From Faecalibacillus intestinalis (lineage in GTDB: Bacteria > Bacillota_I > Bacilli_A > Erysipelotrichales > Coprobacillaceae): a DNA stretch of 64,000 nt. Below are positions 11,350 to 58,753 of the stretch, in pieces (position 1 is the stretch's first letter; each line of letters opens with the position of its first letter). Made by a program: the position numbers and the translations under genes. The DNA lies in assembly GCF_003024685.1 (NCBI RefSeq), contig NZ_PYLQ01000001.1, forward strand, positions 186,001-250,000, written 5' to 3'. The notes under the pieces are model-generated. The model made no database searches and had not been told where the DNA came from. It saw only the letters and a program-made list of their open reading frames with translations.

Positions 11350-12327
11350 ATGAAAACAATTGCTATTGTGGCAACAGGTGGTACGATTGCTGGTACAGGT
11401 AAAAAAGGAAAAACAGCAGCTTATCATGCAGGAGAAATTGATATTGATTCAATTATTGAAACAATTCCAGAAATTAATGAAGTCGCACATATTAAAGAAT
11501 ATCAATTAATGAATATTGATAGTAATGAAATGACACATGAAAAATGGTTGATTTTAAAAAATAACATCGAAGAAATCTTATCTGATGACACCATTGATGG
11601 TGCAGTCGTTACCCATGGGACAGATACTTTAGATGAAACAGCTTATTTTTTAACTTTGACATTAAATACACCAAAGCCTGTTGTTTTAACAGGAGCAATG
11701 CGTCCAGCAACAGCAACGAGTGCAGATGGTCCATTTAATCTTTATCAAGCTATTTGTTTAGCATGTCATGGAGAATCCTATAATCGAGGTGTTCTAGCAT
11801 TATTTTCTAATACGATTTATTCAGGAAGAGATATTGAAAAAGTCAATAACTTTAAAATCGATGCATTTGATCAAAGATCACTAGGATGTTTAGGATATAT
11901 GCAAGATCAAGAAGTCTATTTCTATACACAAACAAGTAAGATTCATACGGTAAAATCACGTTTTAATAAACGTATTGATTCGATTAAAAGTGTAGCGATT
12001 GCTTTTTATTACAGTGGTGCGGATGCTAAAATCTTATATGATCTTGCAAATAATCATGAAGGGATTGTTATTGCGGGATCAGGAAGTGGAAATTATAGCC
12101 AAGCATGGCTAAAAGCAATTGAAGAACTTTCAGAAAAAGGAACTATTTTTGTACGTTCTTCACGTATCTCACAAGGTATTGTGTTTGATGATGAAATTTT
12201 TGATCCACATCATTTATGTATTTCTTCAAATACATTATCACCACAAAAAGCAAGAGTTTTACTCATGCTTGCTTTAACACAAACACATGATCGTGATGAA
12301 ATTAGAGAAATCTTTTTACAATATTAG
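11350..12327 (+). CDS. ansA: L-asparaginase
   Basis: Hydrolyses L-asparagine to aspartate and ammonia. TGGTIAGTG at 9-17 supplies the nucleophile T12, and THGTDTLDETA at 88-98 supplies the T91-D92 pair. The DGPFNLYQA segment (about 129-137) is nearer to the type II lineage, yet there is no signal peptide, so the enzyme should be cytoplasmic. At 325 aa it is full length. TAAGGAGGATAT precedes the ATG. Its last codons and its terminator are duplicated exactly 1.7 kb downstream. Confidence 0.9.
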   Translation: MKTIAIVATGGTIAGTGKKGKTAAYHAGEIDIDSIIETIPEINEVAHIKEYQLMNIDSNEMTHEKWLILKNNIEEILSDDTIDGAVVTHGTDTLDETAYFLTLTLNTPKPVVLTGAMRPATATSADGPFNLYQAICLACHGESYNRGVLALFSNTIYSGRDIEKVNNFKIDAFDQRSLGCLGYMQDQEVYFYTQTSKIHTVKSRFNKRIDSIKSVAIAFYYSGADAKILYDLANNHEGIVIAGSGSGNYSQAWLKAIEELSEKGTIFVRSSRISQGIVFDDEIFDPHHLCISSNTLSPQKARVLLMLALTQTHDRDEIREIFLQY

Positions 12328-12350
12328 AAGGAGAAATCCTTCTTTTTTTA
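12320..12350 (+). repeat. Direct repeat, left copy (ansA 3' end plus terminator)
   Basis: A 31-base sequence identical to 14038-14068. It includes the last ansA codons, the stop and the complete terminator: stem AGAAGGA (12326-12332), loop GAAA, TCCTTCT (12337-12343), seven T. The two copies bracket the MazG-like and epimerase genes like the ends of an integrated segment. Confidence 0.85.
12326..12349 (+). terminator. Intrinsic terminator of ansA
   Basis: Perfect 7-bp stem with a GAAA loop and seven T, starting inside the stop codon region of ansA. Confidence 0.88.
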
Positions 12351-12971: not shown

Positions 12972-13074
12972 ATAAAAAACAAATGTATTATCTTTTAATA
13001 TCAACGATATTTCATCAATCACAAAATACAAATACTACACTACAAAATAGTCTTAAATTAAAGGAGAAAGTAAG

Positions 13075-13941: not shown

Positions 13942-14037
13942 ATTATTAGTTAGGTAAATTGGGTAAAAGATAGTAATAATAACAAGAACGATACATCTAG
14001 CACAACGATATTTTTGATTTTAAATATAGAGCTTTAT

Positions 14038-14068
14038 AATATTAGAAGGAGAAATCCTTCTTTTTTTA
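14038..14068 (+). repeat. Direct repeat, right copy (terminator duplicate)
   Basis: Identical over 31 bases to 12320-12350, including the 7-bp stem, GAAA loop and T-run (14044-14067). Here it follows no complete gene end of its own: the epimerase stops about 95 bases earlier. The copy therefore looks like the far junction of an inserted segment. Confidence 0.85.
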
Positions 14069-54410: not shown

Positions 54411-54980
54411 ATGTTAGAACTTATTAAAGTAAAATATGATCAAGATGTCAAAAAACAATTAGAAAAAAGATTTATTGCTTTTGACGTAGAAACAACAGGT
54501 TTGAATCCAAAAGAGGAAAGAATTATTGAATTAGGAGCTGTTCTTTTTGAAAATGGACAAGCTGTTCAAAAATTTAATACACTTGTCAATGCTGAAGTAG
54601 AAGTCTCTGAGTTTATTTCTAATTTGACACATATTACCAATGAGATGTTAGAAAATCAACCACGAGAAGAAAAAGCATACGAGATGTTCCAAGAGTTTAT
54701 GAAAGAGGCTCTTGAAGGCAAAGTGATTGTTTGTGCGCATAATGCGAAATTTGATATGTCGTTTTTAAGAGAAACTTTTTATAGATTAGACTTAGATGGA
54801 AAAATTTGTTATGTAGATACTTTACAACTTTCAAGAAAATATATCCATGGACCATATAATTATAAGCAAGGAACAATAGCTCATTATTTGCATATAAAAA
54901 ATGAAAATGCACATCGTGCTTATGATGACGCTTATGTGTGTGGTCAAATATTAAACTATATACTAAAGGGAAGCAATTAA
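54411..54980 (+). CDS. DEDDh-type 3'-5' exonuclease (DNA polymerase III epsilon-like)
   Basis: 189 aa. Exo I FIAFDVETTGLNPKEERIIELGAV (about 22-45) supplies the first Asp and Glu. Exo II is HNAKFDMSFLRETF (about 110-123), and Exo III is HRAYDDAYVCGQILNYIL (about 167-184) with the His and Asp of the DEDDh class. It degrades single-stranded DNA or RNA ends; whether it proofreads cannot be told, since it is not fused to PolC. The last codons and terminator are duplicated 1.4 kb downstream. Confidence 0.88.
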   Translation: MLELIKVKYDQDVKKQLEKRFIAFDVETTGLNPKEERIIELGAVLFENGQAVQKFNTLVNAEVEVSEFISNLTHITNEMLENQPREEKAYEMFQEFMKEALEGKVIVCAHNAKFDMSFLRETFYRLDLDGKICYVDTLQLSRKYIHGPYNYKQGTIAHYLHIKNENAHRAYDDAYVCGQILNYILKGSN

Positions 54981-54984
54981 GCTT
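54949..54984 (+). repeat. Direct repeat, left copy (exonuclease 3' end plus terminator)
   Basis: 36 bases that match 56369-56404 with two mismatches; the last 27 (54958-54984) are identical. The repeat covers the final codons (ILKGSN), the stop and the left arm, loop and half the right arm of the terminator. The copies bracket the Mrr-like gene. Confidence 0.85.
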
Positions 54985-54993
54985 TCCTCTTTT
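54967..54993 (+). terminator. Terminator of the pepD-exonuclease unit
   Basis: Stem AGGGAAGC (54967-54974) with GCTTTCCT (54981-54988), one G-U pair, and a short T-run. Confidence 0.75.
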
Positions 54994-55356
54994 AAATTAA
55001 ATAATAATTTCATAAATTAACGGATAGTAGTAATCAAAGTTGTTAAGAAAATTTTATATTTAAGGTACAAAATCTATGATATATGAAAAATTATTAATAT
55101 AAAAAATTTCCATATTTGTACAATAAATCATATGCAAGAGAGAAATAATATGTAAAAATAGATATAGGTGTAAATATTAATTGCATAGAGAGTATAATTA
55201 TGCAGGTTCAGTTTACAAAGAAAGCTGATACATCAAAATCTATATATCAAGCGAATTATTAAGAAGAATGATAATGTTGAAAAAAGAGTTTGCTCGCATG
55301 ATAGAAGAATTAGATTATGATGTTGGGCCTGTTTATGTAAAAAATGGGGGGATAAT
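54994..55356. other. Island leader without a recognisable gene
   Basis: AT-rich sequence with short frames only: a 20-codon frame from 55201 (MQVQFTKKADTSKS) and a 33-codon frame at 55274-55375 (MLKKEFARMIEELDYD) that overlaps the start of the Mrr-like gene. Neither has a convincing ribosome site. They may be scraps of genes lost from the island. No tRNA or integrase is seen. Confidence 0.5.
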
Positions 55357-56271
55357 ATGTATTATGACACATTAAATTCTGAACAACAAATTTCTTTTTT
55401 AATTAAACCTATTATTGAAGTTCTACAAGAAGCAGGTGGTCAATTAGAGCGTTCTGAGATAAGAGATAGAATTAGTGAAAAAGACGAGCATATTGCTGAA
55501 TTTGAACAAAAACTTTATACATCTATTAAGACAGGTAATCAGTATAAAAAGTTTGATTTTAAGTTCAATTTTGCTCTTAAAGAACTAAGTTACGTTGGTT
55601 TCCTTGTGTATGAAAAGTATAAACCTCTTGTTACTTTAACGGCAAAAGGGTCCGCTCTGGATTTAGATAATTTCGACGTTAAAACAGAAGTGCGTGAAAA
55701 GGCAGCAATTTATTGGGAAGAAAAAGCTTCTAAAAATAAAAATAAAGATAAAGTAGTCAATGTAGAAGATGAATTTGAAGATGATATCAAATCTAATGAA
55801 GATGATATTCTGGATGATGTAAAGGTTAAACTCCAAAGTGCTATTGCTAATATGACACCTAAGAAGTTTGAACAGTTTTCTAGAGCATTACTTACAAAGA
55901 TGGGGGTACAGTTTACCGATAAAGGAATAAAAGTTTCAAATGACGGAGGTATTGATGGTTATGGGTATCATATGGATGATGATGACTTTAGAACAACTCG
56001 AGTGGTAATTCAATGTAAGAGATATAATACTGCACCTGTAAGTGAACCTGATATTAATCAATTTTTGGGTGCTATGAATAAGTTTCAAGCTGATTATGGT
56101 GTTTTTATTACAAATAGTAGATTTACAAATGCTGCGAGAATAGCTGCAAGAGAAGGAACACCGATAACATTGATTGATGGGAATGATCTTATAAGATTAA
56201 TAATAAAATATGAGTTGTTCATTACTCCAATTACAACTTATGTATTAGATGAATTTTATAACGAAGAGTAG
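55357..56271 (+). CDS. Mrr-type restriction endonuclease (type IV-like)
   Basis: 304 aa. An N-terminal winged-helix Mrr_N domain (about 1-110: FLIKPIIEVLQEAGGQLERSEIRDRI) probably reads DNA. An acidic linker follows (VEDEFEDDIKSNEDDIL). The C-terminal PD-(D/E)XK domain (about 165-300) has MTPKKFEQFSRALLTKMG, the catalytic Asp in SNDGGIDGYG and the QxK in VVIQCKRY, and GVFITNSRFTNAARIAAR. Such enzymes cut methylated DNA and need no methylase; none is present. GGGGGGATAAT precedes the ATG. It is the only intact gene of the second terminator-bounded island. Confidence 0.88.
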   Translation: MYYDTLNSEQQISFLIKPIIEVLQEAGGQLERSEIRDRISEKDEHIAEFEQKLYTSIKTGNQYKKFDFKFNFALKELSYVGFLVYEKYKPLVTLTAKGSALDLDNFDVKTEVREKAAIYWEEKASKNKNKDKVVNVEDEFEDDIKSNEDDILDDVKVKLQSAIANMTPKKFEQFSRALLTKMGVQFTDKGIKVSNDGGIDGYGYHMDDDDFRTTRVVIQCKRYNTAPVSEPDINQFLGAMNKFQADYGVFITNSRFTNAARIAAREGTPITLIDGNDLIRLIIKYELFITPITTYVLDEFYNEE

Positions 56272-56368
56272 TTGAAAAAATATTTGAAGTAGTTGGTAAA
56301 AATATGTAAAGTTGTACAAGTAAATTTTTTAACGATATGTTCTATTTCTATTGCTTAAGTTTTTTTGT

Positions 56369-56404
56369 TATTAAATCATATACTAAAGGGAAGCAATTAA
56401 GCTT
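56369..56404 (+). repeat. Direct repeat, right copy
   Basis: Matches 54949-54984 over 36 bases with two mismatches. It contains exonuclease-derived codons with no exonuclease gene in front, so it appears to be the far junction of an inserted segment. Confidence 0.85.
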
Positions 56405-56409
56405 CCCTT
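56386..56409. terminator. Bidirectional terminator serving metH
   Basis: Perfect 9-bp stem AAGGGAAGC (56386-56394) with GCTTCCCTT (56401-56409) built from the right repeat copy and overlapping the metH stop codon. Confidence 0.75.
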
Positions 56410-58753
56410 ATATAATATCATTTAATAAATTAACAGCAGCCATAGCATCTTTTGTATAGTAGTCTGCTTGGATATCTTGAGCGATATCTTCTGTTAAGAC
56501 AGCACCACCAACAAAGATAGGACACATCTTTTCTTCTTGTTTTAAAAGATGAATAGTTTCTTCCATAGAAACAACAGTTGTTGTCATTAAAGCAGATAAT
56601 CCAATGGCTTTAGGTTGATGTTTATGATAAGCTTCTAAGATTGTTTTAGAAGGAACATCTTTTCCTAAATCAATCACTTGATAACCATAACTTTCTAAAA
56701 CAACTTTTACTATATTTTTTCCAATATCATGGATATCTCCATGAACAGTTGCAATTAAAACAGGGCCTTTAGAAGATTCAGTTGTTTTAAAAGTTTGTTT
56801 GATAACATCAAAAGCAATTTTACTTGCTTCTGCAGATTGAATAAGCTGAGGTAAAAAGATTTTACCTGTTTCATAATCTTTTCCTATTTGATCTAAAGCA
56901 GGAATAAGTATTTCATTGACGATTGCTAAACCATCTTGTTTTTCTAAAGCAAGTTCCGTTGCTTTTTTGACTTCATCTTTTAATCCATGTAAAACAACAT
57001 CATTTAATGAAAATGAAGTAGTTTGTTTTGGTAATACAACTTGACTTTGAGCTTGTTTTTGAATGTAATTTGTTGCATCTTGATCATAATTATAAAGTAC
57101 ATTAAATGCATCAATTGTATTCATTAATTCTTGATCTAATGGGTTGATAATTGGTAAATCAAGTCCAGCAGACATAGCCATTGCTAAAAATGTTTTATTA
57201 AGTAATGGTCGATTAGGTAAACCAAAGGAAACATTACTGACACCTAAAACAGTATGGACACCCAATGTTTTAACCATAGAAACAGCTTTGATTGTTTCCA
57301 TGACTTCTTTTTGTTGAGCAGAAGCGGTTAAAACAAGACAGTCAATAATGATATCTTTTTTGTCAATGCCATATTCTTTTGCTTTGTTAATAATCTTTTT
57401 AGCGATTTCAAATCTTTGCTCAGCCTTTGGAGGAATGCCATTTTCATCTAAGGCTAAGCCAATGACAACACCACCATATTTTTTTACAACGGGGAAGACG
57501 GCTTCCATGGTTTCATCTTTCCCGTTGACAGAGTTAATAAGTGGTTTTCCATTATAATAACGACAAGCTTCTTCAATTGCTTGGAAATTAGAACTATCAA
57601 TTTGTAAAGGAAGTTGAATAACTTCTTGTAATAATTTAATAACATGCTTCATAACTTTTGGTTCATCAATACCAGGTAAACCGACATTGACATCTAAAAC
57701 ATGAGCTCCTGCTTGTTCTTGTTTGATGGCTTCTACAACAAGTTCATCATAACGTTCTTCTTTTAAAGCCGTTTTTAATTTTTTCTTTCCTGTTGGATTT
57801 AATCTTTCTCCACAAACAACAACATGTTTTCCAAATTCAACAGTTGTTGTTCCTGAAGAGACACGTGTCAACGAAGAAACTTCTCTTGGAGTCACTGTTG
57901 TTGGGCAGTTTTCTTTTAATTTTTGAATAAATTCAGGGGTTGTTCCACAACATCCACCAACGATAGCGATTCCTTTTTTGACAAGAGGAACGATTGCCTC
58001 AATAAATTTATCTGCTTTCATTGGATAAACGGTTTGTCCGTCTTCTAAAAGAGGGAGACCCGCATTTGGTTGAATCATCACAGGGAAAGAGGTACTTTCT
58101 AAAATATTTTCAATAATAGGAGCCATTTCATTTGGTCCTAAAGAACAGTTAATTCCTAAAGCGTCCACTTTTAATCCTTCTAAGACATTGACCATTGTAA
58201 GAGGATCACAGCCTGATAAACTACGACCATTTGTTTCAAAGGTCATTGTTGCAAAAACAGGAAGATCACTACATTCTTTGACAGCTAAAATACTCGCTTT
58301 TAATTCATAAATATCTGTCATTGTTTCAAATAAAACAACATCAATATCCTCTTTTACAAGTTCTACCATTTGCTTAACGCTTTGATAAACTTCATCAAAA
58401 GTTAAAGTTCCCATCGGTTCCATCAGTTTTCCAATAGGACCAATATCTAAAGCAATATAAGCTTCTGGTTTGATTTTTTTAGCTTCTTTTGCATTTTGAA
58501 TAGCCGCTAAAATCACTTCTTGATAACTATATTTATGTTGTTCTAATTTAAGGGGATTTGCGCCAAATGTATTGGTTGTAATAAAATCAGCTCCTGCTTT
58601 TAAATAACGATGATGGATATCAATAATTATTTTAGGATGTTCAATATTATAATATTCTGGAATTTCTCCAGCCTTCATTCCTAGTTCTTGAAGTTGTGAA
58701 CCAAAACCACCATCAAAAATAAGAAGATCTTTATTTAATCTTTCGCGTAACAT
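56408..58753 (-). CDS. metH: Cobalamin-dependent methionine synthase without activation domain
   Basis: 781 aa. It transfers the methyl group of 5-methyl-THF through cobalamin to homocysteine. The Hcy domain (1-290) has the zinc cysteines in LGINCSLGP and VGGCCGTTPEF. The pterin domain (about 310-560) has GERLNPTGKKK and HVLDVNVGLPGIDEP. The B12 cap and binding domains (about 585-781) have GDIHDIGKNIV, whose His ligates cobalt, and IGLSALMTTTV. The SAM-binding reactivation domain of long MetH is absent, and the adjacent gene supplies it. Starts inside the 3' end of that gene (19-base overlap). Confidence 0.93.
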   Translation of the reverse strand: MLRERLNKDLLIFDGGFGSQLQELGMKAGEIPEYYNIEHPKIIIDIHHRYLKAGADFITTNTFGANPLKLEQHKYSYQEVILAAIQNAKEAKKIKPEAYIALDIGPIGKLMEPMGTLTFDEVYQSVKQMVELVKEDIDVVLFETMTDIYELKASILAVKECSDLPVFATMTFETNGRSLSGCDPLTMVNVLEGLKVDALGINCSLGPNEMAPIIENILESTSFPVMIQPNAGLPLLEDGQTVYPMKADKFIEAIVPLVKKGIAIVGGCCGTTPEFIQKLKENCPTTVTPREVSSLTRVSSGTTTVEFGKHVVVCGERLNPTGKKKLKTALKEERYDELVVEAIKQEQAGAHVLDVNVGLPGIDEPKVMKHVIKLLQEVIQLPLQIDSSNFQAIEEACRYYNGKPLINSVNGKDETMEAVFPVVKKYGGVVIGLALDENGIPPKAEQRFEIAKKIINKAKEYGIDKKDIIIDCLVLTASAQQKEVMETIKAVSMVKTLGVHTVLGVSNVSFGLPNRPLLNKTFLAMAMSAGLDLPIINPLDQELMNTIDAFNVLYNYDQDATNYIQKQAQSQVVLPKQTTSFSLNDVVLHGLKDEVKKATELALEKQDGLAIVNEILIPALDQIGKDYETGKIFLPQLIQSAEASKIAFDVIKQTFKTTESSKGPVLIATVHGDIHDIGKNIVKVVLESYGYQVIDLGKDVPSKTILEAYHKHQPKAIGLSALMTTTVVSMEETIHLLKQEEKMCPIFVGGAVLTEDIAQDIQADYYTKDAMAAVNLLNDII

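Follow-up and report, generated by a model that had tools for sequence, protein, structure and literature searches.

How did an Mrr-type restriction gene come to lie between two converging housekeeping genes, and did the hairpin that recurs on both of its sides determine where it landed? The question arose from an earlier note on the 64,000-nt window (the whole stretch of Faecalibacillus intestinalis DNA that was analysed), which described a small restriction island and proposed a class of defence hotspots that use terminators as landing sites. The gene (55357..56271, + strand) was intact and encoded a protein of 304 aa. Its identification as an Mrr-type restriction endonuclease held up, with Pfam matches to Mrr_cat (E=2e-30) and Mrr_N (E=3.3e-10); the best PADLOC matches, PDC-S02 and mREase_IV (2e-20), had moderate scores. 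Presumably, the encoded protein is a modification-dependent nuclease; the note's term methyl-directed calls for caution. To its left was an intact gene for a DnaQ-like 3'-5' exonuclease (54411..54980, + strand; RNase_T, 2.8e-32), 93-96% identical to its counterparts in the genomes G004 and G003. To its right was an intact and convergent metH-like gene for a cobalamin-dependent methionine synthase (56408..58753, - strand; Pfam S-methyl_trans, Pterin_bind and B12-binding), 96-97% identical to its counterparts in the same two genomes.

Alignment of the two sides of the island confirmed a direct repeat of 36 nt (54949-54984 and 56369-56404) with exactly 2 mismatches, as the note had reported. Without gaps the repeat extended to 47 nt at 87%, and with gaps it reached 54949-55021 and 56369-56434 (73 and 66 nt), with 82% identity over 73 columns. 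It ran from the coding end of the exonuclease gene, through a hairpin, into the coding end of metH. Thus, the exonuclease 3' end and the terminator were indeed included, but so were the last metH codons, which had gone unmentioned. The left copy (54949..55021, + strand) contained the last ~32 nt of the exonuclease gene, the terminator hairpin and a fragment similar to the metH 3' end, and the intact exonuclease frame read into this copy. In the right copy (56369..56434, + strand), a fragment of the exonuclease 3' end preceded the hairpin, and this was followed by metH's own 3' end, the gene ending at 56408. In other words, a complete exonuclease was followed by a metH fragment on the left, and an exonuclease fragment was followed by a complete metH on the right.

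The gapped similarity score between the two junctions was 90, while the maximum in 500 dinucleotide shuffles was 42. At distances of >20 kb on contig C1 (294 kb), a control whose pair area was 6.4 times that of the local search, there was no non-coding repeat scoring 50 or more. The outer flanks beyond the 73/66 nt had no significant similarity to exonuclease or metH. The repeat core was found at only these two sites in the 2.79-Mb genome and was absent from the viral contigs searched. The edges of the island had no terminal inverted repeats, and its list of open reading frames included no recombinase.

The exonuclease gene ended in a terminator hairpin with an 8-bp stem followed by CTTTT (54967..54988, + strand; -10.9 kcal/mol, z -2.8), which was detected by the terminator scan. 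The metH gene ended in a hairpin with a perfect 9-bp stem and a weak T-tail (56385..56411, - strand; -17.2 kcal/mol, z -4.7), which the scan missed. The claim that a working terminator remained on both sides was therefore right insofar as each neighbour had a hairpin; however, a classic terminator (hairpin and T-tract) was predicted only in the left copy on the + strand, whereas the right copy formed a strong 9-bp hairpin on either strand with weak tails. The Rfam search at the exonuclease-metH junction gave no match.

As the note had suggested, the empty exonuclease-metH junction was sought in relatives, and it was found in G004, a genome of the same genus, where the exonuclease gene was directly followed by one hairpin and then by metH. 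The flanks of the island aligned to this single-copy junction at 94% and 90%, and overlapped there by 25 bp. This supported the claim of an insertion between two converging housekeeping genes. The junction of G003 was also single-copy; its sole interruption was a multicopy IS-like element that lay within the hairpin, with an 8-bp duplication (GAAGTTTT). The Mrr gene was not found in either genome at E<=1e-40. The junction was compared across three genomes (the window genome, G003 and G004). In 13 columns the two window copies agreed with each other and differed from both relatives, whose hairpins were near-identical; private changes numbered 6 in the left copy and 3 in the right. Since these 13 shared positions differ from G003 and G004, the alignment indicates that both copies descend from the lineage's own junction and not from an imported att site, unless the copies were homogenised by gene conversion, which could also account for the 13 common changes. 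Only two comparators carried the junction, and therefore the polarity of these changes rests on few genomes.

Rather than being conserved at this place in all relatives, the Mrr gene had matches at E<=1e-40 in 4 of the 43 family genomes, two of them broken by stop codons. In comparison with Longibaculum muris, another genus of the same family (Coprobacillaceae), the protein was 89-90% identical. The substitution estimates (pS 0.59 against pN 0.06, dN/dS of about 0.05) indicate that Mrr is under strong purifying selection. Its upstream partner had a different fate. The region 55090..55356 (+ strand) contained a decayed XRE/HigA-like helix-turn-helix (HTH) gene together with its upstream region, recognised by a DNA alignment to L033 (score 126 versus a shuffle maximum of 64), and all three frames were broken. 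An intact 96-aa version of this gene was present in L. muris, where two large serine recombinases at the edge of a prophage-like region were immediately followed by the HTH-Mrr unit, and this in turn by Type I restriction-modification genes. Other relatives of Mrr were located after HsdR, after a Type IIG enzyme, or between PglZ and BrxL. The description of a solitary nuclease was thus true of the window locus but not of the close relatives, which were parts of Type I, Type IIG and BREX loci. In this respect the protein also differed from E. coli Mrr (Type IV), with which it shared the order of Mrr_N followed by Mrr_cat; the two proteins are similar in length. We looked for flanking repeats around the Mrr relatives in other hosts and saw none of note. 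No plasmid, phage or viral carrier of Mrr was found in three collections at the limits used, and a single-sequence search gave no relative with a solved structure. As a separate observation, the Mrr relative between PglZ and BrxL belonged to a BREX-like locus (L040, 1302-6991), and its frame was interrupted in that MAG.

The window contained a second repeat-flanked island at ansA, which the note had cited together with the Mrr island, with a 36-nt repeat at 12315-12350 and 14033-14068. Its cargo was a MazG-domain protein and an NAD-dependent epimerase. G003 represented the empty site of this island, and G004 carried the island, but there the right copy was a decayed piece of ansA, disrupted by frameshifts and stop codons, that matched ansA in two blocks spanning about 620 bp. 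This fragment was closest to the ansA of the same genus and not of other genera. The last 89 bp of the G004 repeat (C1 178646-178734 and 181051-181139) were 97% identical, while the interior was 75% identical, which points to gene conversion or to separate maintenance of this terminal segment. Since the G004 right copy was a decayed fragment of such length, this comparison indicates that a long ansA duplication eroded in the window genome until only the terminator part of the repeat was left. The G004 island also had an extra 162-aa gene (C1 179330-179818) without a Pfam match, which was deleted in the window genome (window 12972-13074).

The note had also proposed a genome-wide repeat scan with inspection of the enclosed genes. 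We scanned contigs C1 and C2 of the window genome (G000) and C1 of G004. In the self-scan of C1, a further clean case was an S66 peptidase gene enclosed by a 36-nt repeat (156200-156235 and 157320-157355) that lacked a hairpin; at a Sir2-like gene, a repeat of 113 bp formed a more complex case. When G000 and G004 were compared along C1, about 15 indel junctions emerged, of which only the Mrr island scored well above background; most indels had no flanking repeat. On C2 (294 kb), the scan revealed no additional insertion of this type; the repeats there were tandem paralogue-like and CRISPR-type, as judged by layout, with one weak pair. Since the S66 peptidase insertion lacked a hairpin and C2 yielded no further case, terminator specificity was not supported. 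The proposed class of defence hotspots was also weak: neither the ansA nor the S66 peptidase insertion carried restriction genes. Apart from these cases, C1 156000-170700 of G000 (L048, L049) contained a cluster of indels relative to G004 and looks like a nested insertion hotspot; the start of the Sir2-like gene was duplicated there over 113 bp, and that of an M24-like gene over 77 bp.

We consider it rather likely that the Mrr island is an insertion with long target duplication, as described for restriction-modification genes of Helicobacter (PMC1643837). Long and variable target duplications upon insertion have been linked to such genes (PMC1643837; PMC3031569), and this type of insertion goes back to Nobusato et al. 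2000 (Gene 259:99), as recounted in these two papers. The insert was present in one genome and absent from a close relative, in which the repeat occurred once; there was no identifiable recombinase or transposon end, and a restriction gene was associated. The patchy distribution of Mrr, its 89-90% identity to the counterpart in another genus and the two further repeat-flanked insertions on the contig were in line with this reading. Insofar as the type is described in those accounts, our case resembled it in a restriction gene missing from a close relative, a long target repeat of variable length and no recombinase; unlike it, our case concerned a gut bacterium from Coprobacillaceae and a lone Mrr with a decayed HTH gene instead of a complete restriction-modification pair.

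In this model, whose outline is shown by the comparison with the empty site, about 1.35 kb with the HTH-Mrr operon entered the exonuclease-metH junction in the window lineage, and a stretch of about 70 bp there was duplicated, which left one copy on each side. Both genes escaped damage, since the left copy supplies the end of the exonuclease and the right copy that of metH, and each retained a hairpin. Later, the two copies diverged and the HTH gene fell into decay, whereas selection continued to act on the nuclease. As for the molecular step, foreign DNA may have been captured at a widely staggered break with its ends filled in, or a circle bearing the junction stretch may have integrated by a single crossover (Campbell-type). 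The duplicates would in principle permit precise RecA-dependent excision. Ku-dependent end joining as the capture route was disfavoured and rejected because no match to Ku was found in the genome, while the positive control matched. A transposon or IS was rejected as well, since the edges had no inverted repeats and the duplication was about 70 bp, compared with 2-14 bp for transposons and IS elements.

Several other histories could produce cargo between direct repeats. Gene 3' ends are common targets of integrases, and the island might accordingly be a CIME-like remnant of an integrase-driven element, with the repeats as attL and attR and the integrase lost. Like such att-flanked islands, it was passive cargo enclosed by direct repeats at the 3' end of a gene; the two large serine recombinases next to the L. 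muris unit and the well conserved terminal 89 bp of the G004 ansA repeat also agree with this origin. We find it unlikely, however, since no recombinase was present in the island, no integrase-bearing partner with the core was found, and the core occurred neither elsewhere in the genome nor in viral contigs. Moreover, an imported att site would give only a short core match, whereas the changes specific to this lineage were present in both copies and extended over the two gene ends. No such repeats flanked the relatives of Mrr in other hosts, and the ansA repeat had formerly spanned about 620 bp. It is very unlikely that the island was ancient and was precisely lost in G003 and G004 through recombination between its repeats. 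The repeats would allow such excision, and their divergence of roughly 18% is in line with it; yet the 13 shared changes place the duplication after the split from G003 and G004, unless conversion occurred, and the hairpins of these two genomes were near-identical.

It appears highly improbable that terminators are recognised as the sites where small passive defence cassettes land. Both the Mrr and the ansA islands had a terminator inside the repeat, and an unrelated IS-like element had entered the very same hairpin in G003. Against this, the Mrr repeat reached into the metH coding sequence, the ansA repeat was left over from a long duplication of coding sequence, the S66 peptidase insertion had no hairpin, and C2 contributed no additional insertion. 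A related and quite unlikely idea is that, in this lineage, DNA preferentially breaks and captures small cassettes at hairpins of gene ends; widely staggered breaks would duplicate the junction and both neighbours would keep their terminators, and the insertions would thus be selectively neutral and accumulate. Under insertion with long target duplication, the terminator is probably a bystander, included because insertions are tolerated between gene ends and not because it is recognised.

These loci provide new empty-site cases outside Helicobacter for a known but poorly explained route of restriction gene movement. They also illustrate that decay can make a long target duplication resemble a terminator-specific repeat, as the hairpin survives longest.

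Finally, the multicopy IS-like element had imperfect terminal inverted repeats and was found at the end of C143 and the start of C34 in G003, and on C2, C5, C15, C23, C25, C27 and C34 in G000 (L100-L106). No transposase was recognised in the internal copy that we examined. The flanks of the element in G000, inspected by eye, mostly started within about 35 bases past a stop codon, which suggests a preference for gene 3' ends.
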